The position numbers and the translations under genes are program-made. Of a stretch of DNA of 64,000 bases, positions 20,806 to 63,699 are shown piece by piece; position 1 is the first letter of the stretch, and the number at the start of each line of letters is the position of its first letter. The notes below the pieces were generated by a model. That model did not search any database and was not told the origin of the DNA. It worked only from the letters and a program-made list of their open reading frames with translations. This stretch comes from Taxawa tesnikishii (nom. ined.) (taxonomy: Eukaryota; Ascomycota; Dothideomycetes; Dothideales): contig JAPDRO010000003.1 of the NCBI GenBank assembly GCA_030247885.1, forward strand, positions 496,001 to 560,000. Direction: 5' to 3'.

Positions 20806-22322
20806 TCAGAACCAGAACCAGCTGCTGCCCTTCTTCTGTTGCGGTGCCGCCTCCTTGGCCGGCTCCTTCGATGAAGCCACGGCCTGTTGGGCGCCGGCAT
20901 TTTCCTGCCGCCTACCGTGAGTCGTCGACACCGTCTCTGTGCTTTCCTCCCTGCCGTCTGAGAAGCGCTTCTTCAGAACTACTTTGGTTGTGACGGTGCC
21001 ATCCGGAAGCGTCGTTTGCTCCGTGGTTGTGAGAGTTGATAGGACGGTGGATTGGCTTTCTTGGGGCGCAATCTCTTGCTCCGGCTGCTGTGAGGAAGCA
21101 GGCTTCGTCTGTTGCTGTGGTTGAGCAGCAGACAACGGTTGTTGCGACTCAGTCTGTGCACCGGTTTCGTGTGCTTTGCCTAGAAACCGTTCATATGCAT
21201 CGAGCTCAGTCTGAGGCGTCTCCGGCTTTGGATGAGCTTGTAGACCCTGTTTGTCATCGGCCTCCAAACGGTCCAGACCCCTTCGGTGGTCCTGCATGGC
21301 GCGCTTGCCTTCGTTCGTGGCCTTTTCTGCTGCAGTGCCCGTCTCCTCCTCAAGATCAGACGTGTCGGCAACCTCCCTCGCCAATGCCTCAAAGTCGTGT
21401 TTCACAAGCCTTGAAGGCCAGCCCCAGCGATGCCTCCCACTGATAGCATCGTTGAACAGCATGTTCCTCTCCCTGCTATCGAAAGGATGAAGCTGGTACA
21501 ACGATGGGAGCTGTGGCGGCAGTACACCCCTGCATTGCAGCCCCAGCATCCAATCCATGCCAGGTTGCGCCCACGTCGCGTAGAGCTTCTGGTTATTCAC
21601 CCTGCCAAACCACGCCTCCCATGCCGACAACTCCTTCCCCAAGTGCGCGCACATCAGATCCTCAAACGCCGCGCGCCACATGCTGCCCTGCTGGTGTAGG
21701 TGCTTGTGCCGTTCGAGCTGCAACGGCGAGTACGGGCTGTTCTTGAACCAGTCCACACTCAACCACGGCGCATCCTGGCGGGCATAGAGGAAGCTGGAAT
21801 TCTCATCCCCCCACTCGTCGTCACCATAGTATCTCCGTTATCCCTAAAGAGACTCAGAACCTTCTTGGGATCCACGTTGGATTCCCTGTTGGCGTTGCTC
21901 GCCTGGAATATGAGAATCTTCGCCGCTTCCCTTGCCTCGTCCGTCACCGTCACCATCTTTGCGCCTTCCGCAGCGCGTTCGGGCCGTCTTCCCCATCCGC
22001 CCCATCCAAGTGGTGTGTTCTGGAGCCCGCCAAAGTCCTTCCACACCTGGCTCATCTCTTCGTCGAACTTGTCCTTGCCATCCCGGAGATGCTGTTCCCA
22101 CTGCCTGTGCTGCTCATCGGCGCGGGCCTTGGCGTTCGAGAGCATGTCCGGAATAGCGTTGAAGCCCTGGATCAGGGTGTTGAACTGCTCGTCTGCGAAG
22201 CGGCGGAAGGCGATGAAGGGGTTGTCCTCGTCTTGCGGGCGCTTTCGCTCCGGCGCCTCGGTGGCGGTGCTGGCATCTTGCTGCCTGCGGTTGGAGTCGC
22301 GGTCGTCGTTCCAAGGTGCCAT
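20806..22322 (-). CDS. Unknown fungal protein with SPYSPLQLE motif (apparent -1 frameshift)
   Basis: Two overlapping minus-strand frames (22322-21759 and 21762-20806) look like one protein. The first has a charged helical N-terminus and a Trp/Gly-rich middle (WKDFGGLQNTPLGWGGWG). The second contains WFKNSPYSPLQLERHKHL followed by MWRAAFEDLMC, a pattern I recall from uncharacterised fungal proteins in which SPYSPL-x-LE precedes a (R/W)xxFEDLL block. It then has a YERFLGK helix, a Gln/Ser-rich linker, a Thr-rich stretch (VLSTLTTTEQTTLPDGTV) and a WFWF end. The span is 1517 nt, one short of a multiple of three. The switch fits one missing base in the six-base run at 21807-21812. With it the product would be 505 aa. 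The function is unknown; a mitochondrial role is only a guess. Confidence 0.65.
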
Positions 22323-22944
22323 GATCGTTGAGTTGGTGTTGTGGGAAATGTTGGGTTCAGATGCTTGAGCAGCACTGAGGTATGGACTTGTTTACATAGT
22401 TATCCGGGTTCGTGGAATCTCGTCGAAGCGCCTGAGCCGCCCACGATGAATCATGGTTGGTTGGATGGCGGGGAACTTGTGGAGGAGGCCATAGCTCCTG
22501 CGTTTCACCATGCCACGAGTTGCACGCAAATCATTGGACCGCGGCAGAAGTACTACCCTGTTCCAAAGCGAACCGTTCTCGAGAAGTGTTCTGATGAAGC
22601 CGACATGGAACTAAGCCTGAGGGAGGCTTGAGTAGGGTGAGAGCGAAGTGGAAGTGAGGTAGCTAAGCATTCAAGCGTTTGAGATAGCTTATGGGTGAAC
22701 ACGAGAACATAATCCATTTCAATCCAGAAGGGTATCGATGACTGAAACCAGGAGCTCCCGCCAAACATTACAACTATATTGTCCCAAAACATCCAAGCCA
22801 TTAAACATTCGTCTCTCTCTCTTGCATGTAGTAGATTGCCGAACAACCTTTCCTGCAGCCATCCTCACGTCGCCTCTTTCCGGAGAGTTTCAGCCACAGC
22901 ACGTCTCTCCCTACGAGACGGACCTTAGTTGCCCATCATAAACG
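22323..22944. other. Intergenic promoter region
   Basis: Upstream region of the preceding minus-strand gene and 3' flank of the hydrolase gene. Nothing else is seen. Confidence 0.45.
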
Positions 22945-23964
22945 TCAAAGCTCCCCAGTCTTCGCACGGCCTGGCAGAGCTGCGGCTCCCTCCTGTCCAT
23001 TAAGGACATTCATGATCCAGTTCTTGCCCTCTTTTGCTTCCGGCAGCCCATAAATCCAAGCCAGCGGGAAACAGTGCATCTGCTTGTCCCAGTTCAGCCA
23101 TTCTCCCTGGACGCCTGCCTCTTGGCACTTCCGGCCGAACAGTATCGCATCGGGTGTCAAAACGTCGTAGCCTCCCGTAACGCCGTAGACCTTGATTCCT
23201 CTCTTCGCCAGCAGGCTGACATCCGCATACAACGGGGAGATACCGGGGTCACTAGGGTCTCCGTCACCTGTCCATGTTCTTGCTCGCTCGTTGATGAAGT
23301 CCAGTGTAAGCACCGGGTCGAACTTGTTGACCGTCTGTACGATCGGGTCATGTGTCTTTAGATCAACGGCTGGCGAGACGGCTAGTATAGACTCTGGACA
23401 CAACGCTGATTCGTTCTTCGCTAATGCCGTCAGAACTAGCGAGAGTGCAATGTTTCCACCCGATGAGTCTCCTGCAAAAGTGACGCTCTCGTTCTCGTCT
23501 GTGGCCTTGCGCAAGACGGTGTCGTACAGCTGTAATAACTGCGGAAGCGCCGCAGGGGCAGCGCTCTTCGGCGCGAGTGGATAGCTGACCACACTGACCA
23601 CAGAGCCGGGCACTTGTTTTGCAATCTCGGCGCACAGCTTCCAGTGTTGACCAGAAGGCGGCATCTGCCATCCGCCACCGGCGAAGTAATATATCCTCTT
23701 TCTAACCCCTCCTTTGGTACTGTGTGCGGAGGTTTTGGCGACGACGTCGTATATCCAGATGCCTTCTTCCTGCCTCTCGGAGACGCTGGCTTTTAGGATA
23801 ATGTTCTTGTAGTCTGATTTACCGAGGCGAGGGGACCCGGGAGGAAAAACTTTCTTGGGTTTGACTAGGCGTGGGCGAACAGGTTTCACCATTGTTTGCA
23901 GGATGGCCATGATGAGAGAGCGATCTGTACGATGCGTGACTTGAAGCGCGTTGGGTTGCGCCAT
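22945..23964 (-). CDS. Alpha/beta hydrolase, HSL-type esterase/lipase
   Basis: A single-exon gene of 339 aa with the alpha/beta hydrolase_3 fold. The nucleophile elbow is GDSSGGN (about residues 166-172). The oxyanion-hole block usually written HGGG reads YFAGGGWQ, as in some fungal members. The acid is in GGYDVLTPD (about 267) and the histidine in KQMHCFPL (about 297). The family cleaves short-chain esters, sterol acetates or drug-like esters; the substrate here is unknown. There is no clear signal peptide, so it is probably intracellular. The start is the first ATG of the frame. Neighbours do not suggest a pathway. Confidence 0.9.
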   Translation of the reverse strand: MAQPNALQVTHRTDRSLIMAILQTMVKPVRPRLVKPKKVFPPGSPRLGKSDYKNIILKASVSERQEEGIWIYDVVAKTSAHSTKGGVRKRIYYFAGGGWQMPPSGQHWKLCAEIAKQVPGSVVSVVSYPLAPKSAAPAALPQLLQLYDTVLRKATDENESVTFAGDSSGGNIALSLVLTALAKNESALCPESILAVSPAVDLKTHDPIVQTVNKFDPVLTLDFINERARTWTGDGDPSDPGISPLYADVSLLAKRGIKVYGVTGGYDVLTPDAILFGRKCQEAGVQGEWLNWDKQMHCFPLAWIYGLPEAKEGKNWIMNVLNGQEGAAALPGRAKTGEL

Positions 23965-24657
23965 CTTGATTATGGCAGTATGCGACAGTAATGCTTGCTG
24001 TCAATCTAGAGGTAAATGAGGCTTTCTGAATGCGAACGGAGTACGGGAATCGAAAGCGATTGGCGAAAAGAATGCGAGATGAGTGGAAAAGAGTTACTTG
24101 GTGCGAGTGAGCATTACACGCCAGCAATGACGCATGAGACTATGAGACACAGATCAACGGTGGCTTGGGCGCTCTCCCTGAGCAATACACCCGACAGACC
24201 TCGCTTGATAGCCTTCGAATACAGCGTAGTATGTCCATGTGCCAACTGTTACAAAAACATCTCTTGCCAGCTGAGATTGCGTATCATGTCCCTGAATTGA
24301 GATGTTTGCAGATGCGACGCGGAGAGTCCGAGATTCGTCGATTCAGTTCACGCCAAGACTTTCAGTCATATGAGACCGCAGCATGAAAGGATAGTTAAAA
24401 GAATTCGTACTCTCTCTGACAACCGGAAGCCAACAGTCCGACATCGCTCTGTTAGACGAAGTCTAGATGAGGTTCAAATAAAGCCTAAGTCAACTACAGG
24501 TGAAGTTCCTGGAACTGTTCACTTCCGGATATCGTTGGAGCTTAATAGTACACCATGTTGCTTCTCTTCCGAAAGGAGCACATCCGGTCGTCAACCAACA
24601 GCAGTGGACTTCCTCTATCAGTCCGTAGCCATACGTAGCCATACCTCCAGCCACTGC
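23965..24657. other. Intergenic region
   Basis: Promoter side of the hydrolase gene and 3' flank of the next minus-strand gene. No gene is seen; there is a short direct repeat (CGTAGCCATAC) near 24626-24645. Confidence 0.45.
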
Positions 24658-25827
24658 TCAGTTACGCCCCTTGTTCTGCTGGCGAGCTTCTTTCTCTGCC
24701 TTAACGCGCTCCCTTTCCCGTGACTTAGCCTCGGACCAGTTCTCAACGATCCAATCCCTTGCATCCACTCTAACAGCATCCTTCTCTTGGATCAGCATAG
24801 CCGCAAACTGGGGTTGCAATTTGGGATCAAGTTCCGGTCGCTCCCTCAAGAGGGGCCGATCCTCCTTGAAGTCGACCCATCGTTTGAAGGCCCGGACGAC
24901 AAGGTTTAGCTTGTCGTTGGAGAGCTGCGCTTCAGACTGAATGACTCCGGTGATATAGCGCCATGCAATCTCCTCATCCATCTCCTTTTGAATGACTGCG
25001 AATCGGTGGTTGTACTCCTTTTGTTTATCGAAGAATTCCAGGGCTTCGTGTAAAACCTTACATCTTCTATCCAAGAAAGCATCTTTCTTTCGATCTGGAA
25101 CGTGGGGAACATACTCGTCTATGAAACGCCGGAACATGCCCCTTGTCTTCAGGCGGCGACGGTCATTTGACTTTTCTGACCTGTCTTGGAACGCCTTCTT
25201 ATCGAACAACTTGCATCCCAGAATCCAATCGAAAAGCTGCTTCTCAGATTCAAACCCGCGTTCGTACCGCAAGGAGTCTAGGCCAAGGAAGTCCATAACG
25301 TCCTTCGGCTGCATGCTGAGGAAGATCATGCTAGCTTTCCGATTCTTAGCTTCAGATTCTTGGATGCGAACGTGTAAACCTTTGTCCGTTGCCGTAAGTC
25401 CATAACCGCGGATGGTGACGCCCAATATCTGCCAAAGGTCGCCATACGATTGCAAGAACGCCAGCCATTCAAGAGTACCCGGCTCGCAGACGTTGATATC
25501 CACTTGAGCGTAGATAGGGTCGCCTTTAGATGGCAGAGGCACGGCGAAAGTGTGTACACCACGGCTGACGTGACGCTCTGCTGAGATGGCAGCAAGTATG
25601 CTGCCCAGAAGGTCGGAGTTTTTCGAGCCTTCCACCAGAAAGTCAATGTCGCCATAATCTACCTTTCCAGGCGCTTCAATGGGACAAGCGACTTTGGCGA
25701 AGAGTCCCGATAGCTGTACCGTAATCTTGTTCTTCAACGCTTGATAGACAGACGGTTCCATTCTGGGTGTTCGAAGTGGTGGCTCGCCATTAGGACCCAA
25801 TACTCCGCTAAAGGCTTGTCCGCCCAT
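24658..25827 (-). CDS. Nucleotidyltransferase-like fungal protein, 389 aa
   Basis: The frame is open to 25926, but only from a TTG; the first ATG is at 25827 and gives MGGQAFSGVLGPNGEPP. Early in the protein KVDYGDIDFLVEG (about residues 54-66) followed by PIYAQVDINVC (about 104-114) matches the G-D-x-D-x-h ... h-D-h pattern of the nucleotidyltransferase fold metal site. The rest is helical and charged, with a basic tail (EKEARQQNKGRN). The substrate is unknown. The open stretch upstream of the ATG encodes a Leu/Pro run built from a short DNA repeat and is probably 5' leader. Confidence 0.6.
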   Translation of the reverse strand: MGGQAFSGVLGPNGEPPLRTPRMEPSVYQALKNKITVQLSGLFAKVACPIEAPGKVDYGDIDFLVEGSKNSDLLGSILAAISAERHVSRGVHTFAVPLPSKGDPIYAQVDINVCEPGTLEWLAFLQSYGDLWQILGVTIRGYGLTATDKGLHVRIQESEAKNRKASMIFLSMQPKDVMDFLGLDSLRYERGFESEKQLFDWILGCKLFDKKAFQDRSEKSNDRRRLKTRGMFRRFIDEYVPHVPDRKKDAFLDRRCKVLHEALEFFDKQKEYNHRFAVIQKEMDEEIAWRYITGVIQSEAQLSNDKLNLVVRAFKRWVDFKEDRPLLRERPELDPKLQPQFAAMLIQEKDAVRVDARDWIVENWSEAKSRERERVKAEKEARQQNKGRN

Positions 25828-26392
25828 TAGAACAGTAGGCGGCAGCGGCAACAGTGGTAGCAGCAACGGTAGCAGCAAAGGTAGGAGTGGTAGCAGGAGG
25901 TGGTTCCAGTAGCGGGTGTGTCGCAAACAGAAGGGTTGAGGGCCTAGGATAGAGAAAATGGACGGTTTTCACGCAAATATATGGTGACCCACAGCAAACA
26001 GCGCTGATGAAAGGAAGGGGCTATGCTCGTGGAAGATGTTGAAGAGATTCTCAGCTTGACTCACAACCACTCTTAGTCTTTACGATGATGCCTTGAAACC
26101 CGACGATGAAATCACAAACACATCTCAAGCATGTCTACAGGTACCAAGCAGCAGCACTTCACGCTGAGCATATCAAGCAAGAGAGAAACAAAACACCTCT
26201 AAGGAGAGGAGAGCAAGAGGCACGCAGTTGGAGAGATAACCGAGCATTGGCGCTTCGGCTAGGGAAGTCCCTGCAGGACCGATGTCATAACGATCAGAGC
26301 TTCCCCAGAAATTTGAGTCGCATTTTGCTGGAAGCTCGAGTCTTCTCATAAACATTTTCACACATACATCTATCTGGATACATCTTGTCAAT
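25828..26392. other. Divergent promoter region
   Basis: Shared upstream region of the nucleotidyltransferase-like gene (minus) and the NAP/SET gene (plus). The left end carries a GGTAGCA/GGCAGCA-type repeat. No gene is seen. Confidence 0.5.
25839..25905. repeat. Imperfect GGTAGCAGC-type repeat
   Basis: Six to seven imperfect units of GGTAGCAGC/AACGGTAGC directly upstream of the nucleotidyltransferase-like start codon. Read on the minus strand they give a Leu/Pro run in frame with the gene. Confidence 0.7.
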
Positions 26393-27481: not shown

Positions 27482-27650
27482 GCGAAGAATTTGAGAGCTT
27501 TAGCTCTTGCTCCGTTGGGGACGTCACGTTGTGACAATGGAAGGTATCCTAGGGCATGATAAAAAGAACGTATATTAGACGAGATCTAATGGGAGAGCAG
27601 CACGCAGGTCATAACGTATGCTTGTGTGTTCCGTGTCAATTAACCGCCGC

Positions 27651-45069: not shown

Positions 45070-46127
45070 TAATGCGAAACCAGATACTCTGTCAGAAATC
45101 GCAATCGATCCCCCATCATCGCCAAGGTCTTCTTGTGCTCTCCGTGAAAAGAAGTCTCCCTTCCTGACTGCAACAGTCTCCGTTTCCTCGATCGTGAGCA
45201 TGTTGGTTGCCAAGTCGTGCAGACGTGAATGTTTGGGACATTGCATTCTTGAAGCTTAACGGGCGATGACAACTTCACATGACTGGACTGATTCCATCAG
45301 GTTGCACGGAACAAGGAGCAGACAGAGACGAGAAGATACTCGTACGCTCATAGTGATCCCTACTTGTGAGAACTAGCAGCCTCTAAGGGGAGAGAGGGGA
45401 ATTAACTCAACGAAAGAAGCGGCCTGTAAGTGTCGGTAACAGCTGTGGTGCAAGACACATCCTACAACGACTAGGCGGATCGTTTAAGGATGACAGCCAT
45501 CGAAGCGTAGGCGCTGAACACAACCGGTATTGCGAGAGGGTCGAGGTCAGAGTCGTGTACAGTCGCGGCGTTGTCGTCTCTCCTGACAACAGGAGCCGTT
45601 GCTATTGTGCGGTGTTTCACATCAAGACGAGGATTAGCAGGCCGCACGCGCGTCTTTGTTTGACAAAGGAGCTAGCCGGTGGCGCTTTTGCATCAGCTGT
45701 ACGGCATGGGCGTGGAGACGGTGTTGCATCGTGTTCTTGTATGGAAGAGCTCACATGTACTTACTGTAGATACCAGGGAGTCTGTACTTTTTGTACCCCT
45801 TCTTTCCACGTGCCTCAGTAACGGGGACGGGAAAGGCGCTCGTGCAAGCCGGGCGCGATTGTGTACTGTGTGCGTTGTGATTGGTGTCGCGGCAATCTTA
45901 GCGTGCAGGCACTTCCTCTATTCGATGACGAAAACAGATATCCGAAACACCTCCTGCATGAACTGCTGCCGTCTGGCTCCACACGCCCCAAACAAACCCA
46001 CTGATTACTAGTACCAAACACTATGACCACCTGAATGAACCTCTTCCTCGTTGGCGGCGCAGACAACATGGACCGGACAACGCCGAGTGCGCAAACCTCC
46101 ATTGCGAGAGGAAGACTGCCCGGCGCA
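45070..46127. other. Intergenic region
   Basis: 3' flank of the GH5 gene and upstream region of the next gene. No frame here has a recognisable domain. Confidence 0.45.
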
Positions 46128-47820
46128 ATGGAGGTCCAAACAATACTATCAGGGGCGCAACCACTCAACTCGCTCCAGCCCCGGCCGAGCACATACGGAG
46201 CCCTACGAGCCCTGCGAGTCTCACCTTTCCCAAGCCCTTGTCGCGCTCCAGCACCTCGTCTTCGACATTGTCTTTCCAGTCACACAACCGATCAACGTCT
46301 GTGGCGGACACGTCGAGGAAGGACGCACGACTGTCTATGCCATTCCCGATCCAGACTGCGAACATCAACACCAATACACACCGAAGGACGCCTTCGCCCG
46401 TCAAGGCAGCTGCCCCTGCCTTGCTTCCGGAAAGTCTGGCTTCGCCTACGGGGTCTACCGACACGAACCTTTTGACCGCTCTCGCGGCACAGGAGAGGCG
46501 CGTCTTGGAGCTGAAGGAGGAGCTGCAGCGCGCAGAGCAGGATCTGAAGAGGCTGAAGCATGATTGGATGGCGCACGAGGCACAGAAGAAGCGACACGAT
46601 GCAAGAAGGGTGCAGAAGCTACAATCGTTGAACACCACACTGCCCGGTGTGAACGCCAAGGACGACGATGCGAATGGCGGTTCGGCGTGGTTGCAGCAAG
46701 AGATGGAGAGACGGAAGGCATTGCTGAGCGGTACCAAGGCTTCCAGCAGGACGGTCTTCTCCGGATCTCGCCATGCTCGCACACTGTCTCTGTTGTCGCC
46801 CGTCCAGCCCTCGGCTCCCTCATCGTTCCGGAGAATGGATGAACCTAGGGACTCACATACACCGCCCTCGCTCGAGAGACCGCCGCTTCCGAAGCGAGCA
46901 TCTACGAATCAGGATCTGACCAGGGAGGTTGTGGAAAAGGCGGACGAGAACATCGATCTAGGCTTACCAAGAGATGTCCTGCTGAAAACAGGGAAACAGA
47001 TGGCTTCAGATTTCAAGGACGGACTCTGGACCTTCATCGAAGATCTTCGGCAAGCAACAGTAGGGGACGAGGCGGTCAACGGCACATACTCGCGCACACA
47101 GAGCGTATCGAACTCAATACCAGGGGTAAGGTGCCCAGAAAACTACCTAGCGACCCGCGTCTCCGACCCACAGGCACAGTACGACCACCATCAACCAGGA
47201 CGTCCACCAGCACTAGTATACGTACCGCAGCAAGGAGTCCTGGGCCCAAGGACGCCACACACGACGCCCCACTCATAGATGTGGGCAACTCGTTCTGGGA
47301 AGAAAACGGCCTGCCCGCACCGAAAATCGCGGAAGCGCCGATCCGACGCAGGTCGAATAGATCCAAACCCTCCGCGGCGACGAAGGCTCGCCACACGCAC
47401 ACGAACTCGTTCGACAGCTGGGACAACTGGGAGTCGCCGTCGAACGAGAAGAAAACCGCGCGCTCGAACAGCGACACGTCCGTCTCCGAGGCGCGGACGT
47501 CGCCCAGTCCCGGCCGTTCGAGTCCGCGGACAAGCGTAAGGTAAGGTAACGATGAGCTCCGATGCTCGCTCTTTCTCAGAAGGCACCGGCTGATGACCGT
47601 TCCCAAGCTCCTCTAGGGACGAGATGATGGCACAGAGTGCGTCGCACGATCGGGTGAAGAGGGATTCCATCCCATGGCCGGCCCTGGTGAAGCTGTCCCC
47701 GGAAACCTGAGGCGGACCGCCTCGCATCTGATGCAGGAGTGGGAGAGGAGTCTGACGCCTCCGCCCGGTGTCAGAGATGGCCAGGCCGATTACCTGGGAA
47801 AGGACAGCAAGGCCGATTGA
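46128..47820 (+). CDS. DUF4048-like coiled-coil protein (apparent -1 frameshifts)
   Basis: A fungal protein of unknown function. Its middle part (46238-47125) has a coiled coil (LAAQERRVLELKEELQRAEQ), Ser/Pro-rich linkers and DFKDGLWTFIEDLRQATVGD, which I associate with DUF4048. Beyond 47126 the frame changes to one with APLIDVGNSFWEENGLP and DSWDNWESPSNEKK. After an intron (47541-47616, GTAAGG...CTCTAG) a further frame reads RDEMM..IPWPALVKLSP. The rest, NLRRTASHLMQEWERSLTPPP, is in yet another frame. Both switches lie on four-base runs (GGGG at 47123, CCCC at 47697) and fit one missing base each. A 48-nt intron may also sit at 47126-47173. The start is uncertain: the ATG at 46128 needs a third -1 shift at 46152. 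Expected length is about 520-540 aa. Confidence 0.65.
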
Positions 47821-48455: not shown

Positions 48456-48529
48456 GTTTAAAGAACTTCATTGAATCATTCGCTTCCGATTGTCGATGGA
48501 ACGGATTGGTAGCATATAGTACGAATGTA

Positions 48530-50947
48530 TCAACCGGCCGACGCATCTTCTTTCTGAAGTACGGTCCCGTCTGCAGCGAACCGCGAGCCATCCTCTCTTT
48601 CATCGTCGTTATCATCACCATTCGCATTAGCCGGCAGACGCTTCCTTAGTGTGCTGCCAGAGGCCGACCGCGGATCAACATCCAAACTCGGCGCTGGCTG
48701 CGGTGCGCACCGTTTGATGTACCTCGCCAGACTCTCGCAAAGCCGATCGAGGATGAAGTCCGCCTCGGGTCTCTGTTCCATCATTGGGCTGTCCTCCCCA
48801 ATCCAGTCCCACTCAATGAGCCCCTCTTCCTCGTCCTCGTCATCGCCCGCGCTGCGCGACGTGAACCTGATCAGTTTCGTGTACTCGACCCATTCCTCGT
48901 AACTGTATCTCTTAGGGGGTCCAACCGCAAATCCTTCGCAATGCGACGGATCGCGTGCGCGAGACGGCGCGCCAGCTCCTGGTCGTCTTCTTGGTCGGCC
49001 TCGGTAGCGAGCTGGTCCATCGTTGGTGGACGGTCGAGTTCCTTCTCCTCTTCCGGATCCGGACCTGTTTCGAAGCCCCGCTGCAGCCGCTTCTTGGCGG
49101 CCTTACGGGCGTTGCGGTTCTGGAGCCATGACAGCAGCCACGGGTTCCGTTCGAGGAAGCTGCGCCAGATGCCGGCTTTGGGCAGTACCGTGAAGTCTGC
49201 GAGACGCGAACTAGCCCTCTTGAAGTTACCGATGACGGTGTCTCCCATGTGGCCGATCAGGATCGTCATGGTGGGAACCGCGAGCAAACTCCAAACGACG
49301 AAGAAAGGCCGTCCAGCGTTGGTCTTGGGTGCGAGGTCCCCGTAGCCCACGGTTAACAGAGACACGTAGCAGAGGTAGAGTGCTTGAAAATACGTCATGC
49401 TCTGGACCTCGTGCTCGGCTCTCCAGAAGATGGCCGCGCCACCGCACCAGAGAATGGCGAACGCCGTGACAGAGATGCTCAGAGCTGTCCAGCGCTTGAA
49501 GTTGTTGGTGCTGTTCTGGAGAGCGCGCATTGCATCGAACCGGTCCTTTTCTTCCCTCAAGAGTATGAGTCGGGGTTTCTTCGTTGGCCTGATCACTGAT
49601 AGAGATCGCGTTGCCGCTCGACGTAGACCGCGTAGCGGTGTGAGTGAGCCGTCATGTGGGTGGCCCGGATGACCTTCTGGGGTGTCCCTGGGATCTATGA
49701 TCCGTAATTGAGCGGCTCTGTCCACAGGATTGAACGGCTCTGAGATGGCTGGCCTTTCGCCGCCGTTCAACACCGTCTCCCGCTGGATGTCGAGAGAGCT
49801 GGTTACTGTTCGTCCGATTGTCCTTGTTCGACTTCTCTCGAGGTGCTTGTTGACGACTTTGTCGGATCCGAGCTCAGCCGCAAATCTGGAGATAGACGAG
49901 ATCATGAGACCCAGCATTATGATGCCCCCGACCGAATACGGGAAAACCAGCCCGCGTCCGACGTTGCTCGAGGCGTATAGATCGCCGAATCCGACGGTCA
50001 GAATGGTGACGTCGCAGAAATAGAGAGCATTGGTGTAATCCCAATTGAAACCTTCAGTTCCATAGAGCGATTCAACCCTGGAGAAAACTGCACCTCCGCC
50101 GGCGAGCCAGATGAAGAACAGCATGGTCTGGAGGATGAGCGTACGTTGAGAGTCGGTGAGATTGAATCGCTGCGAATAGTGACCCAGGAAGTAGCCAAGC
50201 ATATTGACCATCAGAAGCATAGAGCACACCAGATACAGTATACTCGCAATCACCGCATACCAGAAACCTTGAGTGTAAGTTTGTTGAGGCCGCGTTGGAG
50301 GGACGTAAATGTTCATGGAGAGGGTTATGCCTATCAATATGCCGGTAGCCATGTACCACATGATGATGGTAACAGGTAGCGCAATGATGTACCGGATCCG
50401 ATTGGTGAAATTGCACAGCAGAAACAGATTCCCGACGAAGCCCATGATGAGAGAAACGACGTTGAGCCAGTAGCACCACCGCGGATCGTTCAAGGGCACC
50501 CCTTCCTGGTCTCCAACGAGGATACTAGTGTCGCCGTTCCATGAGCAAATGGCAGCAGTGACACGGTCCGTGACTCCAGGAACCAAGCACATCCTCCACG
50601 GAGTGACTAAAGCGGCAATGGACAGGACGTTTGCGAGAGGTCCGATAGTAGCGGCAAGAAGCGGAATGGCTGTAGAGGCAAACCACCAATCATTCTCTTG
50701 ATCGTCGTCCCAGGGCCGGAGAGACCACTTCCACCACGGCTGTCCTTGAGGTGGCCTAGTCAGGGACGCTCTTCGAGTGGAAGATGCTCTAGACGCTCTT
50801 CGACCGGAAGAAGGTCTTGGGCCAGACACGTTCCCGGAAGATCTCCGACGCGGAAACCATGGGTGTTCTCTGGTGTGTTGCCCACCAGCGCCTGTTGGTG
50901 CGAATGGGGGCTACATCGAAATCACCGGACCTCTGTTCGCTGCTCAT
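48530..50947 (-). CDS. TOK1: TOK-type two-pore outward-rectifier K+ channel (apparent -1 frameshifts)
   Basis: A plasma-membrane potassium channel with eight membrane segments and two pore loops: TILTVGFGDLYASS (P1) and SLLTVGYGDLAP (P2). The main frame runs from 50829 to 48871. It then has to move to a second frame reading RYSYEEWVEYTKLIRF and EGLIEWDWIGEDSPM, typical of the fungal TOK C-terminal domain, ending at 48530. The break falls on a five-base run (GGGGG at 48915-48919), and one added base gives DPPKRYSYEEW. The long frame begins with GTG, and its first ATG lies after the first membrane segment, so the true start is upstream. An ATG at 50947 reaches the frame if two more bases are missing (50906-50910 and 50833-50835). 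That gives about 806 aa. It diverges from the permease gene. Confidence 0.9.
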
Positions 50948-51831: not shown

Positions 51832-54174
51832 ATGTTTACCAAACACCGACATAACGCCGCCAAATCGGAGGACCAGATGGCCCGACCGGCGAACCCTCTA
51901 CAAACGGATTTCGAAACGGCCTCCAGCGTGGACACCGACGAGCAGTATCTGGTAAGGGCGGAGCCCTGAAAAATCAAGGATGGCGAACAGATAAGTCAAG
52001 AAGCATTGTCCTTTTGCGCGCTCCACTGGCAGTGGGTAAGTTATGGCCATCACGGAGAAACCAATCGTAGGCATTCTGAAAACTTTTGCCCAGCCCAATG
52101 GCATTGGTTTCGGATGTCAAGAAGCCATGGCACGCGGGCGTCCGACCCGTTCCGCTGCTTCTTGCTTGCGAGGAGACGGCGGGACGGCGAAGGCTGAGAG
52201 AGTACCGCTTGAACTTGATCGCTTTCACGAGCGCGTAAGGAGATGCTATGACTGGACAACCAGCCTTCCCTGATTCCCTTCCGCCTGACGTTCTCACATT
52301 AACACAGTGCAGAACGCACTCGGGTATAAACAGGTAAGTTTGTTGAAGATCCCTTGAATTACGTCCAGCTAACCTCTTCTTAGACCCTTCACCGCCAATG
52401 GAAGTTCTTCGAGAGTTTCGCAGCCAGTTTCGGTATATGTCTTTCAATTCGCTACGAAACAAGTGCCTAACGGAGAACAGCTGCACTCTACTTCGTAGGA
52501 GGTATTCGAGTAACTTTTTCAATCGGCGTCGGTGCCGGTGGACCGGCCGCTTATTGGTAGGCATCTCCATCCTCGCACGTTGACCATCATTGACCGGCTG
52601 CCAGGTCGAGTTACGTTGTCACATGCATTTTCGTCTTCATCACAGCAGCAGTCCTTGCTGAAATCTGCTCCGCGCTGCCTGCTGCAGGTTCTATCTATTT
52701 GTGAGCAAGCAAGCCCTCACTGTCATTAAACTTCTCACTCATTTCGAACATAGCTGGGCTGCCGAGTCTGGTGGACGTCGCTTCGGGAGGTTGTTTGGTT
52801 TCATTGTCGCCTGGTGGAGCACAACCGCCTGGACGACCTTCGTTGCTTCGAACTGTCAAGGCGCAGCAAACTACCTGCTTTCTGAACTTGCCGTCTTCAA
52901 TGTGAACTACACCACCGATGTCAGCGACATCAAGTTCCGCGCGGTGCAGTGGGCTGTTGCAGAGGGCATCCTCTTCATCTCCATTGGCATGAACTACCTG
53001 GACCCGAAGACCTACAAGTGGATTTTCAGAATTAGCACCGGAATCATCATGCTCGATTTCTTCCTCAACATCATCTGGTTGCCGATCGCAGTGTCGAAGA
53101 CTTACGGCTTCCAGCCCGCCTCTTTCGTCTTCACGCAAACGTACAACGAGACTGGTGCGCCTCCTGTCTGGAACTGGATGCTCTCGTACTTCGTTACCGC
53201 AGGTGTCCTGGTAGGCTTCGAAGCGAGCGGTCACATCTCGGAGGAAACCAAAGACGCAAGCTTGACCGCCGCGAAGGGCATCTTCTCTTCTGCCGTAGCT
53301 TCTGCCGTCCTGGGCTTCCCGATTGTCATCCTCTTCCTCTTCTGTACACCGGACCTGGACACGCTATACTCGTTCACGGCTCCTCAACCGTTCGTCGGTC
53401 TGTACGCGCAAACTCTGGGCCAGGGTGGTCAAGTGGTCATGGTTGTGGTCTGCATTCTCGGTCTCATCTTTAACACCACCGTTGCTGGCGTTGCCAGTTC
53501 CCGGCTGATTTGGGCCGTGGCAAGAGACGGTGTGTTGCCTTGGTCCAGCTGGATCAGCGAGGTTTCCGGAAACAGAGAGCCCCGGCACGCAGTCATGGTC
53601 ATGCATGGTGTCGCTGCACTGCTGCTCTGCACCATCTTGCCGTCTTCCGTCGCCTTCTCTTCGCTCGTCAGTGCCGCTGCAGTGCCCACTATCACTGCCT
53701 ATGCTCTCATCTGCTGTAAGTCTTGCTTTTCAACCTGCATGTCTCGAAACCCTTAAATTGGCTGACACGGCGGCAGTTGGTTGCACCTTCATCACGCCCA
53801 ACGAATTCCGTCACGCCAGATGGTCGCTCGGCCGCTTCTCTCTGCCTCTGCGTCTCATCGCCATGGTCTGGAACCTCTACCTAGCCGCCATTTTGTTCTC
53901 ACCAATCGAGTTCCCCGTCACGGCCTCGACATTCAACTGTGAGTATTTACCCTTGGCTCTTCACAACCATCTCGCTCTTTCCTCCCTCTCCTCTGCTTGA
54001 ATCATGTGTTGTCTAGCTGCTGACCATTCGGAAACAGATTCTCCAGTCATCTTTGGCGGTATAACAATCTTCGGTATCCTGTCATGGTGGTTCACACCCG
54101 AAGAACGTTGGTTGCCTACTGCGCGACTCGGAAAACTGCGTGAGGTTGAGGAGGAATTGAACCGGACCACCTAA
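51832..54174 (+). CDS. APC-family amino acid/GABA/choline-type permease, 8 exons
   Basis: A 12-segment membrane transporter. Exons are 51832-51951, 52313-52333, 52384-52432, 52481-52556, 52605-52700, 52754-53715, 53777-53938 and 54038-54174, total 1623 nt, 540 aa. Introns are 48-99 nt except the first (361 nt). The spliced N-terminus reads YLNALGYKQTLHRQW and is followed by FESFAASFAALYFVGG, FSIGVGAGGPAAYW, AEICSALPAAGSIYFWAAES and LFGFIVAWWSTTAWTTFVAS, the pattern of fungal UGA4/HNM1-like permeases. Later segments include FNTTVAGVASSRLIWAVARD. Substrate cannot be assigned. Exon 2 is a 21-nt microexon encoding NALGYKQ. No frameshift is seen, unlike its neighbours on both sides. Confidence 0.92.
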
Positions 54175-54677: not shown

Positions 54678-57600
54678 TCACTCCTTCCTTAACAGCTTCC
54701 TTTGCAGATTGTCAAATACCATCGGCATACTCTGGACCGCATACATGGTCTTCGGGGCCAACTCCCTGATAGCCCTCACGCTGCCGACCTGCTTCGCGAG
54801 TTGTTCCTTCATCTTCTTTCTCCTCCCCACCGCCTCCGCATTCCTCAGCTCCAGCAGCCTCGCCCCCAGGTACACCATTGTCCTGTACTGCGGGACCAAT
54901 TCACCCTTTCTAAAATAGCGCTTCTTCATGTACTGCGTGCCCTCTGCCACGGCGGCTTTGGTCGGGCGATAGTATATAGCGTTTGTTGCTTTCCGCTCGG
55001 TCGGAGTGGAAGAGGACAGCGTGGTCGGGTTCGAAAAGAGAGCCAAAGGGCCGCGGTCTCTGATCCAGCCTGGCCAGGAGGCCATCATATGCCTCTCGAC
55101 AAGGGTAAACGCAAGCATGGTGCGGGGCGGGGAGGACTCGCTGCCCCGGCACAAAGCACGGATATAAGCGTTCCAGGTGGCATTGTCGAAGGCGTATCCT
55201 TCTTGCTGAAGCGCTATGAACATCCCATGAATCTTGTCGATCTGCGGTGGGTCCTGTCTGACCAAAGAGACCATGTAGTAGCGGAAAGCGCTCGTAAGGA
55301 TGAAGCGATAGCCGGGCGCGACGGTGTGTGTGGGTTTCCGGGCGCCCTTGAAGCCCTTGGAGGACAAGCGACGCGATTGGCGGAGCGCGATTTCGGTAGT
55401 GGCTGGCATGGCGGTGAGGGCGTCCGCTTGCGTCTTTGCGAGGTCCCAGAGCCGTTCAACTTCGGCAAATTCGCCGGCACGATTAAGAGCAGACATGAGT
55501 GCAGTGAGGATGCGAATAGGGGGCGGATTGTCGTTTGTAAGGGTCTGGTCTGAGGCGGCAAAGTAGCGGCTGAGAATCTCCTTGACAGCATCGAAGCAGC
55601 GACGAACGCCATGGATGTAGATTGCGAAGTCGAAGTATGAGGCTGATATGACATCGTTCTCGTCGAAACGACGCAAGCTCTTTTCATCCTGGTCAGCAGA
55701 CAACATGGAGGTGTTAGGCTTCTCGACCATCTCTAGGAGATCATCGATGAGTGATCGGAGTTGTATACCCTCGCGTGTCTCTGGATTGACTGGCGCTGTT
55801 TCGTTTCCCAGCAACGCCTTCGCTCTTAAGGCTGCCCTACGCGAATTCACGGTTGGTCTTATCCTGGCCTTCTCCATTGTAGCGGCGACTTCTACAGCTT
55901 CCCTATACATTTTCTGCCTCATATACCCGACGATGATGATGGCGTAGTGAAAAGCTGTCGTCCTTATACCACTTTCTGGCATGACTTCGCGAACGATCTT
56001 CCATGCGGTGTTGGTCTGTCGGAACAGGGTCATAGATTGTATAAGAGCAGCGTAAGTTTTGTCGTCAAGACGAACATTTTCCGCTCTCATCTGCCGATAG
56101 GTCCTCATTGTTTCATCAGGTTCCCTCCGAAGGGCATGAGCGGTCATGACGGTGTTAAAGCAAGAGGTGAGTTCTCCTGTAATCTTTCCCTTCTTGACAC
56201 CGTCGACTGTTTCTGCCAGGACTTCTTTAGCAGCTTCCACGTCATCGTCGTTAACGTATGCATTGATAAGCCCGGCGAGCATGTGCGTGCTGGGTACGAC
56301 GCCGTGAGTTTGGGCAGCTTCCATTATTTTTGTGGCTTCGACAACGTCTCCTCGTTTCCCGTAGATCTCGAGCAAGGGGCTGTACGAATACTCATTTGGC
56401 CGTATGCCCTTTCCATCCATCTGCTCTAACAACTCAAGAGCACCATCGATATCCTCCGCTTCTGCATGAGCATGAAGAAGCACGCTCCAGCTTTGAACAT
56501 CTGGCTCGACTCCGAATTCGTTCTTGATGCGATTGAACTGCTCACGTGCTCGAGGCAAGTCAGCCTTCCTGGCAAATGTATAGATAAGAGGCCAGAACCC
56601 AGAAGGTTCCGGCCGCCCTGGGGGAAAAGCGCCAAATAGTCAGCAAGATAGCGTTCGACGTCTTCGAATCGTCCTAGCTTAGCAAAGGTTGACATGCAAT
56701 GGACGATCGCGTCTTTGTTGACATATGTGCGATGTTGCTTCCAATCGGAGACGACTTGTTCCAGATGAAACAAAGTTGGTTTCTGACGCGTTTGTTCAAC
56801 GAACAGTAGGCGCTTGCACCAGTATTTGAGAATAGCGAAAAACAGTCCTACTGAAGGTTTGAATTCAGGAAGGCTCCTGAACTGTGCGTAGCTGCGCCAT
56901 ATGAGGGAGTATAAGCCGTCGTTTTCTGCACAGTCTGGTACTTTCAGTAGTTCGTGCAGACAAAATTCAATGTTGGCACCTCTGAATCTTGCACCAGCAT
57001 AGACCATGACGAGCCGCATCACATTGCGAACCTCCACTCTAGCATGCCTGCCGCTGAGGTGCGGGGACAGTATGCGCCGCTCTTGGGTGTGATGCTGGAC
57101 CAGACTGCGGAACAACGGCCGCACCAAATGCTCCAGGGGTCACGTATGGCACGCCTTGCTGTCCCTTCCATGGTTTGAATCAATGAAGTGACACGATCGT
57201 ACAGTCCCGGAAGTCTTTCAACGCCGTCCCATACAGCTTCTGTTCGTGATCCAAGCGAGAGGCGAGCTTGAAAATCGGAAAAGCTCTGGAGAATACTCAA
57301 GGCAAGGTCCCAATTGCGATGGGCCACGGCGTATATCAACAGAAGATTGGAGCCGAACGGACGGACCTCCTTCGCCATTTTGACACCACGCTCGTGAACG
57401 TCGACCGCCGTCTGAAGAAGATCCGCTTTCAGACAAGCTCCGATGGACTCATAGTACAGCGACGCAGGTGCTTCTTTCATGTCGATGACACGCTCAGCAA
57501 GCTCTTTCACCCTGTCCCTTGTCTCCGGACGCAGCCTTGCATGCTCGGTGCAAACTCCCAGTAAACGCTCCAGCACTTCGGGTTTCTTTTGGGCTTCTTC

Positions 57601-58089
57601 TGGTAGCGTACAGAATGCGTCCCAAGCTCGCTCAGCAACAGTCTCTACCCTACCGGATACTCTAGGCAACGTGTCTCCTTGCAGCGATTTGTCAGGCGCA
57701 CTGAGGTGAATTGCGCTCTTAACCGCACTTCCGGCAGATTTGTTCGACGCAGCACCTTCGGAAGTATCGAGAGATGGAAAAGCTGCAGCAATGAAGTCTT
57801 TGTAGTCCCTGTGTCCTTCCTCCGTCTTCACGCTCTTTGCCTGCGCTCCGCTCATTGATGAGTAACCGCGCAGTCCCGAAAGAGCTGTGGGACTATTGCG
57901 CCGCTCCCATCTCTCCCACGTCGCTGTAGATAACCGGCTGAGGAAAGCAAGAGCTTGAGGCGGATACAAGAAGTCGAGGAAGGGGGCATCGCGGTGGGTT
58001 TGCGGGACGTCTTCTGGTCGCAGAGTAGTGGCGTGGACATGGCCCTTTGATTCTATTTCGGAAGGCGAAGAGGAAGAGGAAGAGTCCAT
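54678..58089 (-). CDS. Pentatricopeptide-repeat protein, about 1137 aa (two apparent -1 frameshifts)
   Basis: PPR proteins bind organellar RNA; fungal ones act mostly in mitochondria. The start is ATG at 58089. Three frames follow each other: 58089 to about 57140, then to about 56622, then to 54678. Helical-hairpin repeats are evident, for example VQSWSVLLHAHAEAEDIDGA, LLEQMDGKGIRPNEYSYSPL and LAGLINAYVNDDDVEAAKEV. Both breaks lie on runs (GGGG at 57136-57139, GGGGG at 56620-56624), and one added base in each gives RDPLEHLVRPLF and LFPPGRPEPSGFWPLIYTFA. The span is 3412 nt, two short of a multiple of three, which fits. I find no introns. The N-terminal 110 residues are Ser-rich, with an unclear targeting signal. 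Confidence 0.85.
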
Positions 58090-58714
58090 GGTGGTATTTC
58101 CAGGTCACCGGAACCGTGATGCCAGAACTGGGAGTGGAGCAACCGACGAGACCTTGCGGCACGTCGCTGGGCGCGCAATGAAAGGCGTACACCAGTGTCC
58201 AGACATCCTGCTGCCCGCTCTAGCATGCCACAGAGGGCGGCGCAGATATATCTCCTCCTGTTGTGGCCACCCTAGAACAAACAACCAGCACTAGCAGACT
58301 CCTCGCTCCTCCGTGATAACATCAATCCGTATTCAGCAGTCGACCGTTCTCGTCCCCTTGGCAAGAAGATGGACTGCTTACGGATTAGTAGGGAAAGACA
58401 CGAATTCGGGGTTCAAAGGGGTACTGCTGGGGCGATAGAGATGTAGTACAAGAAAGACAAAAGGAGTAGTATGTGGCGGTGGAGTTGTTGTAGAAGCAAA
58501 CAGCTTGAAGCAACTTTCTCAGAATGTATGATGCTCGATCGGGGAAATCTTCCGTCTCAGGCGACTTTCTTGGCATGCAACTCGGCTTCCTACAAGCAAT
58601 CGCACCCGAAACCCCACCAAGTACACCCCACGTCTTTCTACAGTTTGACTATACTACAGTACAAAATATACCACATTGCATGTTGGCTGCACTACGCCGC
58701 CGCCGTAGCACAAG
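58090..58714. other. Bidirectional promoter of PPR and SRP68 genes
   Basis: Divergent upstream region. No gene or repeat is recognised. Confidence 0.5.
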
Positions 58715-60811
58715 ATGGACATCACTCAGTTCGCCGTTGGCAACCGGGACAGCGCCCTTCTCATCGGCGACTACAACAGCTACCGCAGCCAGCTCTCACG
58801 CCAACTGTTGGCAGCAAGAAAGCGCCTGGGTCGCGCGACACCCAAGAATGCCAAATTTGTTCAAAAGCCTCCCATATCCGCAGAGAACGTCGGACAGGAC
58901 CACGGGTATGCTGCGACTGAAGACGAAGCTGTATGTAACGAGACTGAGCCGCCTGCAGATATGTGCATCTCATCCTGCTCACCGCCGAGCGTGCCTGGGC
59001 GCATGCTATGCACATGAAGTCAACCCATTCCGAAGACAACGCTGGAAAGGGTATTACTGGACCGACCCGCAGCCACATTGTCTCCCGTCTTAACAAGGCA
59101 GCGAAATCCGCGAAAGAGCTCGTGACGTTGTTGGAAGACCGATCCACTTCGAATTCATCGGATGTCGATGTTCTGGAGGCTAAGGCATACCTTGCTACTC
59201 TTTGCGGAGCCGAGGAGTTCGAAAAGCAGGCCGAGGGTCAAAGATCAAGGGAAGAGCAAGCAGCTGAGGGCAGATGGAATCATTGTCTGCAACAGTATGC
59301 CAGGGCGAGAGTCATCTATGCTTCCCTCTTCAGCAACACCAAGAAGGAGATTTTCCGGGAGATTCTGGCAAACACTACTGATCCAACTATCCGTTATGCT
59401 GCCTATCAAGCCCGATTGCCGCGAACAGTAGCTGTTTCGTCTGTAGCGTTGCGTTACTTTCCCAAGGAGGACACTGAACTGGCAGATTCTATAAAGCAAC
59501 TCGATCCCAAAGCATTCGACGAGCAAACGGCCCCAGCGTGTAAGCAACGACTGTGTTGACTCTTCACAAGCTCCTGACTGACGACAAACTAGCCAGTCAA
59601 ACTCCAGGCGCTGCAGGTGAAATACCCAACACCATCACGTGGCGGTCGCGCAAAGCAAACATTGTCGACGCCGCTATCGGACAAGCACTCGCATCGGTAT
59701 ACGCAGCAGAGTCGCGACTGTCCGATTTCCTTTCGTCGAACCCTAACGCATCATCACGCGATAAAGCTGCCGCTTACGACGACATCCTCATCCCTAGTCA
59801 GGATGCTGTAGATGCCACCCGTCAAGCCATCGAGGAGCTGGAAAAAGAGCGGGTTGATGAAGGTGATGCTCGAATGCAAGATCTCCGTGTCACCAGCCTT
59901 GCAGTCAACTACTCGCTCGTCAGCTGGCGCGTGGGACGGAACCGCGTACTGATTGGCAGCGAAGACGGCAGACTGTTTCAAGATCAGAAACCAAAGAAAC
60001 CGAAACGCGCTCGTCGGGATGGGAAGGACTGGACAGAGAAGGAAGAACCCAGAGCAAAAAACTTGCCCGGCTTCGCGAAAGGGTCGTGCTTTACGACGCA
60101 ACGATTCAGAGCATCGACTCTATCAAGGAGCTTAGGGGTGCCATGCGCGACGAAGCTTTCGTCGAGGAGCTGGATGGCAAGCGTGCCTACTTCCAGGCTT
60201 TGAGGTGCGTAGCCTGTGTTCCCGTCCCACACATCTTTCATCTTGCTGACGACCCGTCCAGATGTCTCAACATCGCCACCTCGCATACACTGCTCTCCGC
60301 ACCCCTTAACGCACTGGCCCTCCTCGCTCGCGGTTCCACCCTGATCTCGCAAGCGCAGCCATCAGTCTCGTCCGACACCTCCACCTCCTCGCCACCTAAC
60401 CTCGAGATCACCTCGGCTCAAAGCTCCGCGTTGAGCGGCCGCATCAAGACGCTAGTCCTGCGCAACCAAGCCCTGGTAGACCTCTCCAAATTCCACGATA
60501 ACGCCTCCATCGCCGCTTCCAAGCGAATGGCATCCGCCAATCCCTGGGTGCAGCGACTCTCGGACTACCCTACTCCCGGCACGAACGTGGATCTGGGAAA
60601 CTTGGTCACGTATCCGCCCAAGTTGGAGCCGGTGCCAGTCAAACCGTTGTTCTTCGACGTCGCGTGGAACTACATCGAGTATCCTGGCAGAGCGGAGAAA
60701 GGTGTGGTGCAGGATGTTGTCGAGACCGTTAAGGAGAAGGTAGGCATCGACGGCGTGGCCAAGGAGGAGCCACAGCCCAAGAAGAGAGGGTGGTTTGGGT
60801 TTGGAAGGTAG
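58715..60811 (+). CDS. SRP68: Signal recognition particle subunit SRP68 (apparent -1 frameshift)
   Basis: Binds SRP RNA and SRP72 in the particle that targets secretory proteins to the ER. Exons are 58715-58905, 58959-59539, 59593-60204 and 60262-60811 (introns 53-57 nt). The N-terminus MDITQFAVGNRDSALLIGDY with YRSQLSRQLLAARKRLGRAT, then HLILLTAERAWAHAMHMKS and RSHIVSRLNKA, is the SRP68 RNA-binding part. Later come RYAAYQARLPRTVA and ITWRSRKANIVDAAI. Near 60060 the frame must step back by one between EPRAK and LARLRERVVLYDATIQSID. The step lies in a six-A run (60056-60061) that also forms the heptamer A AAA AAC in the zero frame. The spliced sum is 1934 nt, one short of 645 codons. It ends KKRGWFGFGR. 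Confidence 0.93.
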
Positions 60812-60916
60812 ATTGGATGGAGGTGGGGTGTGTGCGAATGGACTGTGGATATGTATGGAAAAAGATTTATGCATGAGCCAGTGAAGCTGAAGCCTTTTAG
60901 CAACGCGTCAAGCTGA

Positions 60917-60972
60917 GCTCACTTCACTTCGCTTCCCTTCACCTCGGTCACACTTCGGCGCACCTTCAGGCA
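60917..60972 (+). repeat. Degenerate CTTCACTT-type repeat patch
   Basis: CTCACTTCACTTCG, CTTCCCTTCACCTCGG, TCACACTTCGG and CACCTTCAGG at roughly 10-12 nt spacing. Confidence 0.5.
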
Positions 60973-61168
60973 CCCCTGTTATGCTTTCCCCCGCTTCCTC
61001 GGTAGCTCCAGCGACATCACTGCGCGTAATTCTACCACAAACGGTGAGCATGCACTGTCATGGTTCACTTCCACTTTTTCCGGCAGGCGAATGCGGGACG
61101 TACTGGGTGTTCCCTACAGCCAACCACAACTAACCGATCGCCTGCTATCCCAATTCAGCAACAGCATT

Positions 61169-61191
61169 CGCGTAGCTCGCGTAGCTCGCGC
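61169..61191. repeat. Tandem CGTAGCTCG repeat
   Basis: Two full 9-10 bp units (CGCGTAGCTCG) and a partial third. Confidence 0.7.
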
Positions 61192-61402
61192 GGGTATAGC
61201 GTGTTCACACATGGATCGCATAGCGCTTGCCCTTCACGCTTGGGCCTATCGATGGTTACCCAGCTATACGTTGTCGCATAGTGATAGCAGACAATCAGTC
61301 AGACACTGGCCAAAACAAAGTTCTCGGAGACTGATGGATGCGTGAACTTTCTTGTGATACGAATTCTGTGTTTCGTACAAAACGAGAAATGAGAGGTATT
61401 AA

Positions 61403-63699
61403 TCAGCCCCAGATGGCATCCTTGGCCCTGCCACTGCCTCCGTGCACATCCGGCGGCGCCGTGAGGGTGTAACTCCATGCTTCCTTTCCATCAATGAAGA
61501 GGCGATAGTGCAGCAGCGACTGCTCAGATGCAGGGGCGTGCTGATGGATAGCGCGCCAAACTTTGAGTTGCCGTCCGGGAGGTACCTGATAGTGGGAGAT
61601 TGTGTCAGCCAGAACCGTCCTATGGTGAAAGAGAGATTGGGATGACTAGGGAAAAGGGAAAGGGGAAGCGCTTACTTGATGCAAACGTCCTCATCGTCCG
61701 TCTGCTTGTACGTCCTGACGGGCAGGTAAAACATGCTCAGCGGACTCGCGCTGAACTCGTGTACCGCAGCGCTACGCGGCCACTTCTTGGTCTTGGGCTC
61801 CGCCGCCACGACGGGTTTTGGGCCTATACCACCCAACATTCCACGGCTGTCGCCTTTTCCGGCATCGCTGTCGTGCAACCCCTCGACGCGCCCCTCCTCG
61901 GGGGCGGGAAACTCGTGGCGGCAAACTCGTGTCTGTCGCCGCTGAGCACGACGACGCCAACACCGCCGCGCGCACCCACATCCCACATGGCCTCAAGGAT
62001 CTGCTGGCGCTCGCCCAGATAACCGCCCCACGTGTCCTCACTACCGAAGCGCCAGTTCTTGGTGAAGGGGATGCTGCTGACGACAATCTTCCACCTGACA
62101 CCGTGTGGTTCTGATTTCGCGAGGAAGGAGAGCAGATCCGAGAGCTGCGCCTCCCCAGCATCGACTTGCGGTATCCCGGGTTCTCCTCGAGGACCTCGGC
62201 GGAGTAAGAGCCGTCGGTGCCGTCAAAGGGATCGCGGTGGGTGCGCGTGTCCATCATGAAGAAACTCGCAGGCCCCTGCGTGAAGGCAAACCACGTGGCG
62301 CCGGGTCTGACAGGCGGTGGGTTCGCAGCGACATGATAATGGTGCCATGGGTCCGCAGCTGAAGCGTACACACCGGTGGTATTGCGGTCCCAGTCATTTG
62401 CGATCTCGTGGTCGTCGAGGACGTGGATCCAGGGAAGGGATTTGGAAACGGCGGGCCAGTCGGGGGATGAGTATACTTGGCGGTATTCGCGTCTGTAAAC
62501 CTCCTTTGTCGTGCCGAAGCGGTGGGGTACGTCGACGTAAATGAAGTCGCCCAGGAAAACCATAAATTGCGCGCCCAGAGTCGGGAGGAGATTGGCGAGA
62601 TGGCGGAGGCCAGGTATAGACAGGGGATGCTCGATGGGGTTGTATGGGAAGTGTGGCTTTATGCAAGAAGAGTGCAAGAACGTGAAAACGTTCTGATGTC
62701 TTGAAGCAGTGTGGCCAACCCGAGGTGCAGTAATGAAGTAGCCTGTCTGGTTCGTAGAGACTGCGTACTGGTACTTGGTGTCCGGACGAAGGTCCTTGAT
62801 GTGGAAGGCTCCGGTGTAGTCGGTGTCCTCATCGAGCCAGTTGATAGAGCCAGCAGACTTCCAGCTGTTGTCGGGTGTATTGTGTCCTTGGTATATGTCC
62901 ACCGGCGAATCAGCGTAGCGGTATGAGAGAAAGACCGGGTACTGGTTCGCATGCGGTTCACGGATCAGGACGTCAGCTGTAGTATCCGAGACGTAGCCAA
63001 CGCGGGCCATTGAGAGCCCATGAGCTGGATGGAGGAGAGGGGCTCTGTAGACCAGGTCCGCGGTCATCAGGGCCAGGGCAACGTTGATGGTGATGGCGAG
63101 AGCGCTCCAAAAGCCTCCCTGTGGACTTGGAAGACCGGTCAGGAGTGTCTTCAATCTTTCCGGACCCCTCTCTTCTATGACGATCCGCTCTCGCGTGTCA
63201 AGCTCCACCAAAGGTTCCTTCTCGGCCTGCTCATCCACCAGTTCCGGATCAAGGGCATCCTCAGCATCGGCGCGGTCGGTGATCTCAGTCGCAATAATGT
63301 CGATTTCGTCGGCGATGATTCTCTCAGTCGGAGTCCGCTGTGAGCTGAAGAAGTAGGAGACAAGGTAGACGGCGAGCGCGGCGAAAATGACGGGGGAAGT
63401 CATGGCCCGGAATCCATCTAGGGCGTGTCAGTACTGCAATCACACTAGAAGCGGTGGTTTCAACAGGCCGCCCGTTCCACACACAGATGGTTGCCCGGGA
63501 ATCTCTTTATGGCGAGTCCCCTACGTATGTGCCTAGCAATGTTCTGCCGGACTGCCTTTGCAGCTGATGGCCGGGAGAGCGCGAGGGCATGTGGAAATAT
63601 AGCAACCAGCAACCAGCAACCCACGTACCTAAGGAAGATGTAGGCGCATACTCTCAGCGCAAGCGAGCTGAGTGCGGCCAGTACAGAGAAGGGATCCAT
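61403..63699 (-). CDS. PhoD-like metallophosphatase, membrane-anchored (apparent -1 frameshifts)
   Basis: A metal-dependent phosphatase/phosphodiesterase of the PhoD family. The main frame (63403-about 62155) has two membrane segments (FAALAVYLVSYFF, FWSALAITINVALALMTADL), a fibronectin-like N-domain (DTKYQYAVSTNQTGYF) and the metal motifs GDFIYVDVP, LDDHEIANDWD and FFMMDTRTHRDP. The rest is split among frames: LSDLLSFLAKSEPHGVRWKI, VVLSGDRHEFAATSFPPP, EEGRVEGLHDSDAGKG, and after an intron (61675-61586) YLPDGNSKFGALSIS then SEQSLLHYRLFIDGKEAWSY. Three switches lie on runs at 62153-62156, 61900-61904 and 61533-61536. A likely 5' exon (63699-63629, MDPFSVLAALSSLALRVCAY) joins across a 211-nt intron but needs two more bases near 63404. 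Expected length is about 640-665 aa. Confidence 0.85.

Follow-up and report, generated by a model that had tools for sequence, protein, structure and literature searches.

Ten reading-frame breaks had been proposed in a first-pass annotation of a 64-kb stretch of the Taxawa tesnikishii assembly (positions 496001-560000 of contig C23, JAPDRO010000003.1; referred to here as the window), in six genes that include SRP68, a potassium channel and a PhoD-like phosphatase. We found that the frame breaks are almost certainly bases missed in single-base runs of the assembly and not biology, as judged here from the assembled sequence alone. The assembly comprises 29,367,862 bases in 34 contigs. The first-pass annotation was right on the cause, slightly generous in the number of sites and too narrow in the place.

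All ten runs were present exactly where they had been placed. To each of them a coding test was applied, in which 150 nucleotides on either side of the run were scored in both frames as a log-likelihood against non-coding DNA, using a model trained on the fetched sequence. Coding in one frame (A) upstream and in the -1 frame (B) downstream was supported at eight runs, namely those beginning at 21807, 47123, 48915, 56620, 57136, 60056, 61900 and 62153. At 21807, the gain was 10.0 upstream in frame A and 8.8 downstream in frame B, with the other frame at -15.2 and -14.5, and the gains at 48915 were 14.0 and 12.8. The support was modest at 56620 and 57136 (downstream gains of 1.2 and 1.0), where the other frame was clearly worse on either side. 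The two remaining sites did not hold up equally. At 61533, the chosen frames scored -7.7 and -7.9, below non-coding DNA and better only in relative terms, so that this site is a weak case and perhaps not a good example of a frame change. At 47697, both upstream frames lay far below non-coding DNA (-13.1 and -11.8) and frame B was neutral downstream (0.5); this run is located approximately 150 nucleotides beyond the stop at 47544 that closes the DUF4048 frame, and a frame change is not supported there.

Pfam domains were split in the -1 sense at the DUF4048 site, the SRP68 site and one PhoD site. Domain coordinates at the frame breaks were derived by hand from the residue numbers of the matches. 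The DUF4048 profile (PF13257) was matched from 1 to 129 in one frame (to position 47113) and from 114 to 253 in the next (from 47077). The SRP68 profile (PF16969) was spread over four successive open reading frames (ORFs) as 1-51, 49-228, 227-369 and 346-565, and the break at 60056 separates the last two pieces. The PhoD profile (PF09423) was matched as 24-190 and then 188-274, the latter spanning 62156 to 61899, with a listed run at either end. No Pfam match was found for the ORFs 61672-61992 and 61399-61671 of this gene beyond 61900, and the site at 61900 therefore rests on the coding test and on the scan described below. Additionally, solved SRP68 chains aligned to frame B in the vicinity of the run at 60056-60061 and downstream of it, with six structure matches for the second piece; the same search with the first piece gave no match at E 0.001.

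A blind scan was performed with a gene model that included codon phases and introns, gave equal prior odds to a lost and an extra base, and made no use of homopolymers. It covered the window and 23 other 10-kb stretches on 21 contigs (24 stretches, 294 kb, 135.6 kb coding); a further 10-kb stretch outside the window, L002, was excluded because it is an AT-rich block resembling the product of repeat-induced point mutation (RIP). The scan found six of the ten listed sites, offset by 12-60 bases, and did not recover 47697, 56620, 57136 or 61533. In total, 38 events with one base missing were detected versus 4 with one base extra (P = 6e-8), the only extra-type event of the window lying at 19893. 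Outside the window there were 31 missing-type and 3 extra-type events, and the missing type occurred in 15 of the 23 stretches. The 24 stretches held 110 gene models, and 29 of these carried a missing-type event. All shifts had been said to share one sign: this was true of the eight supported sites, which are all -1, and that sign dominated the scan, whereas of the two other claimed sites one is weak and one unsupported. As a control, a model of this type was trained in a single round on 100 kb of Escherichia coli K-12. It gave 6 missing-type and 3 extra-type events in 77.1 kb, which is the same lean at less than one third of the rate (0.8 missing-type events per 10 kb versus 2.8 here).

The missing-type events were associated with homopolymers. 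Runs of at least five bases lay within 25 nucleotides of 11 of the 38 events (29%) versus 4.5% of 5000 random coding positions (P = 6e-7), and runs of at least four bases within 25 nucleotides of 71% versus 29%. The run lengths themselves were also truncated. Under a trinucleotide model of the same 294 kb, 7 G/C runs of at least six bases were present where 45.4 were expected (standard deviation 7.2), and 185 of at least five where 230 were expected. In the 24 stretches sampled outside the window (240 kb, with L002), the probability that a G/C run extends by one base was approximately 0.2 per step up to four bases, 0.16 from four to five and 0.03 beyond. The extension from five to six bases was seen in 7 of 185 runs, compared with 9 of 53 in E. 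coli K-12 (Fisher P = 0.002), and it was low regardless of coding status, at 1 of 70 runs where coding sequence was detected and 6 of 115 in the remainder, which is non-coding or was not detected as coding.

The breaks had further been described as concentrated at 46-62 kb, and this was not established. Given the frequency in the other stretches, 3.3 missing-type events were expected between 46 and 64 kb and 6 were found (P = 0.11); between 1 and 46 kb, 5.5 were expected and 1 was found (P = 0.03). Of the two stretches adjoining the window, one contained 1 event and the other none, which is too small a number for further conclusions, and the unevenness within the window is weak evidence at best. 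A local cause in 46-62 kb was considered and set aside, as the other 23 stretches show a similar mean rate; the error is distributed across the parts of the assembly that were sampled. The same comparison bears on gene decay, according to which the window would be degenerating and would truly have lost single bases. Decay would fit the position of six of the seven scanned missing-type events of the window at 46-64 kb. However, local decay fails because the same events occur elsewhere at a like mean rate, which is no lower than that of the window (2.93 versus 2.34 events per 10 kb coding), though 8 of the 23 stretches have none. One sign dominates, and the coding signal persists on either side of the eight supported breaks; we consider decay exceedingly improbable.

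Mass recoding would offer another explanation, in which the genes as written are intact and the ribosomes undergo a -1 slip at short runs. Every supported shift has the sign of -1 slippage, and the SRP68 site at 60056-60061 contains the canonical heptamer A AAA AAC in phase. However, a slippery X XXY YYZ heptamer was in phase at this one listed site of the ten, and it was found near 1 of the 38 scanned events versus 41 of 3252 background positions (1.3%), which is no meaningful excess. Programmed frameshifting therefore fails as a general cause. The run truncation was also seen outside detected coding sequence, and two of the three repeats of a polyubiquitin gene need no slip, so that we regard mass recoding as very improbable. 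With its canonical heptamer in the right phase, the SRP68 site itself might conceivably be a true programmed -1 frameshift amid artefacts, a reading to which we give a slim chance; if true, it would yield two SRP68 forms in the cell.

Beyond the window, highly conserved genes of the assembly showed breaks of this kind. In the polyubiquitin gene on contig C1, repeats 2 and 3 share one frame, and repeat 1 starts out in another and joins them at a run of four equal bases. Same-sign frame steps were found between the profile pieces of a CCT subunit (C1:528166-528264 and 528261-528602, the first piece under the family cut-off), of an HSP70 (C3:494622-495404 and 494122-494625) and of an actin-family gene (C1:2219159-2219458 and 2219458-2219712). 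These three steps were judged by hand from the match coordinates, and intron-sized gaps between other pieces were taken as introns; no intron fits at the three steps because the pieces meet or overlap. Among the matches listed (CCT 24, HSP70 20, actin 23), there was no touching pair of opposite sign. Another actin-family pair (C11:53450-53596 and 53524-53949) shows an overlap of 73 bases and a -1 difference, and is probably one more of these same-sign breaks.

Loss of mismatch repair in a mutator lineage, with runs shortened for real, would likewise give one sign and truncated runs throughout the genome, and PMC6528967 describes the loss of DNA repair genes in a yeast lineage. In the present assembly, however, MutS_V domains were found at six loci on contigs C9, C31, C32 and C34 (8 matches; the search covered MutS_V only), and missing-type events affect more than a quarter of the scanned gene models. 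A CCT subunit is among the broken genes. CCT subunits are essential in yeast, and a living haploid could hardly bear such losses; a mutator lineage is thus, in our judgment, hardly credible as the cause.

Undercalling of homopolymers would be expected to produce one sign, an association with runs, a deficit of long runs regardless of coding, and a spread that includes highly conserved genes, and all of these were observed. The cause named in the first-pass annotation fits best and is supported by the dominant sign, the run association, the G/C truncation, the breaks in conserved genes and the scarcity of the heptamer at the listed sites. On this reading, the consensus records single-base runs, G/C runs above all, as one base too short at some of the sites, whether coding or not, throughout the contigs sampled. 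Each miss inside a gene leaves the coding sequence behind it in the -1 frame, and conserved genes therefore look broken. We infer that the runs are longer in the organism's DNA than in the assembly, and the source is presumably a base-calling or consensus step for long reads that caps runs near five bases.

Such behaviour has published precedents. A report on a human nanopore assembly describes base-callers 'consistently capping homopolymers at 5 bp' (PMC5889714); the likeness is that run lengths drop sharply past five bases, whereas A/T-rich homopolymer 5-mers are given there as the most under-represented and G/C runs were the more truncated here. A cap near five bases is, as described in that source, a product of older nanopore base-callers. 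Reading-frame errors are recorded for nanopore-only assemblies of the fungus Drechmeria coniospora, in which, as here, one-base insertions or deletions in short runs alter the frames of conserved genes genome-wide (PMC7500977). The Homopolish paper states that nanopore consensus tools leave systematic insertions and deletions, and its Pseudomonas aeruginosa assembly after Racon contained more deletions than insertions (2417 versus 538), as was the case here (PMC8011154).

Several observations weigh against this explanation. The model or overlapping genes may account for part of the sign asymmetry, because the E. coli control leans likewise, though at a much lower rate; that control is a bacterium, and its model received a single round of training without iteration. 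Eight of the 23 stretches outside the window have no missing-type event, and 11 of the 38 missing-type events have no run of at least four bases within 25 nucleotides. Some of the 38 events are missed introns or poorly placed calls: event 47186 sits 60 bases from the listed run, and event 58970 is very probably a missed intron, because the SRP68 profile ends at 51 and restarts at 49 across a gap of approximately 44 bases. A/T runs were only mildly short (39 of at least six bases versus 61.4 expected in the 294 kb). As for the precedents, insertions exceeded deletions after polishing in D. coniospora, in contrast to the 38 to 4 found here, and the concern is said in that paper not to apply to PacBio-only fungal assemblies (PMC7500977). 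The P. aeruginosa Flye draft had mostly insertions (14394 versus 439), unlike the present assembly, so that the missing-base sign is not universal for long-read assemblies (PMC8011154).

With missing-type events in 29 of the 110 scanned gene models, this assembly gives no reliable basis for counting genes, calling pseudogenes or declaring genes 'lost' until accurate reads have been used to correct it. We suggest the G/C five-to-six extension ratio, together with the sign of the frame changes, as a simple read-free test for such assemblies.

The genes that carry the breaks are listed in Table 1. The Pfam content of the window included DUF4048, an ion channel with two Ion_trans_2 stretches, PPR, SRP68, PhoD and a GH5 cellulase, among others, and suggests a filamentous fungus; no tRNAs, and no Rfam families at the gathering score, were found in the 64 kb.

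Table 1. Positions of the genes and runs discussed, with the site of each frame change and the associated observations.
Feature	Position	Strand	Frame change	Observations
Gene without a Pfam family, two overlapping ORFs (21759-22391 and 20806-21837)	20806..22391	-	run 21807-21812	scan event 21829
DUF4048 gene, two frames	45962..47544	+	near 47123-47126	coding test; scan event 47186
Listed run without supported frame change	47697..47700	+		coding test; past the DUF4048 stop at 47544
Potassium-channel gene	48530..50910	-	48915-48919, near the C-terminus	PF07885 Ion_trans_2, two stretches; scan event 48931
PPR gene, three overlapping ORFs	54678..58104	-	57136-57139 and 56620-56624	coding test
SRP68 gene	58709..60811	+	60056-60061, no intron room	intron-like gaps near 58.93 and 59.56 kb; scan event 60082
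PhoD-like phosphatase gene	61399..63427	-	62153-62156 and 61900-61904; weak at 61533-61536	scan events 62170 and 61916

A Pfam search of the two ORFs at 20806..22391 revealed no family in either. The label TOK-type for the channel gene is the wording of the first-pass annotation, and a Pfam search of its C-terminal ORF gave nothing better than E = 1.4. In the PPR gene, PPR families were matched in the ORF 54678-56639 only, and none in the other two ORFs. Near 56620, the scan preferred a 50-base intron (56598-56549), which we set aside because the PPR_long match begins inside it and covers part of that stretch. When a paralogue of the C-terminal end of the PhoD-like protein was sought in the same genome, only the query itself was found.

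The excluded block L002 (C1:100001-110000) is 10 kb long with 23% guanine plus cytosine, a TpA/ApT ratio of 1.79 and a (CpA+TpG)/(ApC+GpT) ratio of 0.034, which, by the RIP thresholds, we take to be the pattern of intense RIP; it contained no ORF of 120 amino acids under code 4. A conserved 18S rRNA stretch, queried with up to 2 mismatches, was not found in the whole assembly, and the ribosomal DNA may be absent from it or different at that stretch.

The intron-like gaps in SRP68 lie at 58913-58956 and 59538-59596 and are roughly 45-60 bases long, and gaps of similar size recur between the pieces of the chaperone and actin matches; many introns in this genome may thus be near 50-60 bases. At 834-2384 of the window, the first propeller of an RSE1/DDB1/CPSF1 protein runs on past a same-frame stop (profile 1-197, then 209-339), and this stop possibly lies in an intron with a length divisible by three.

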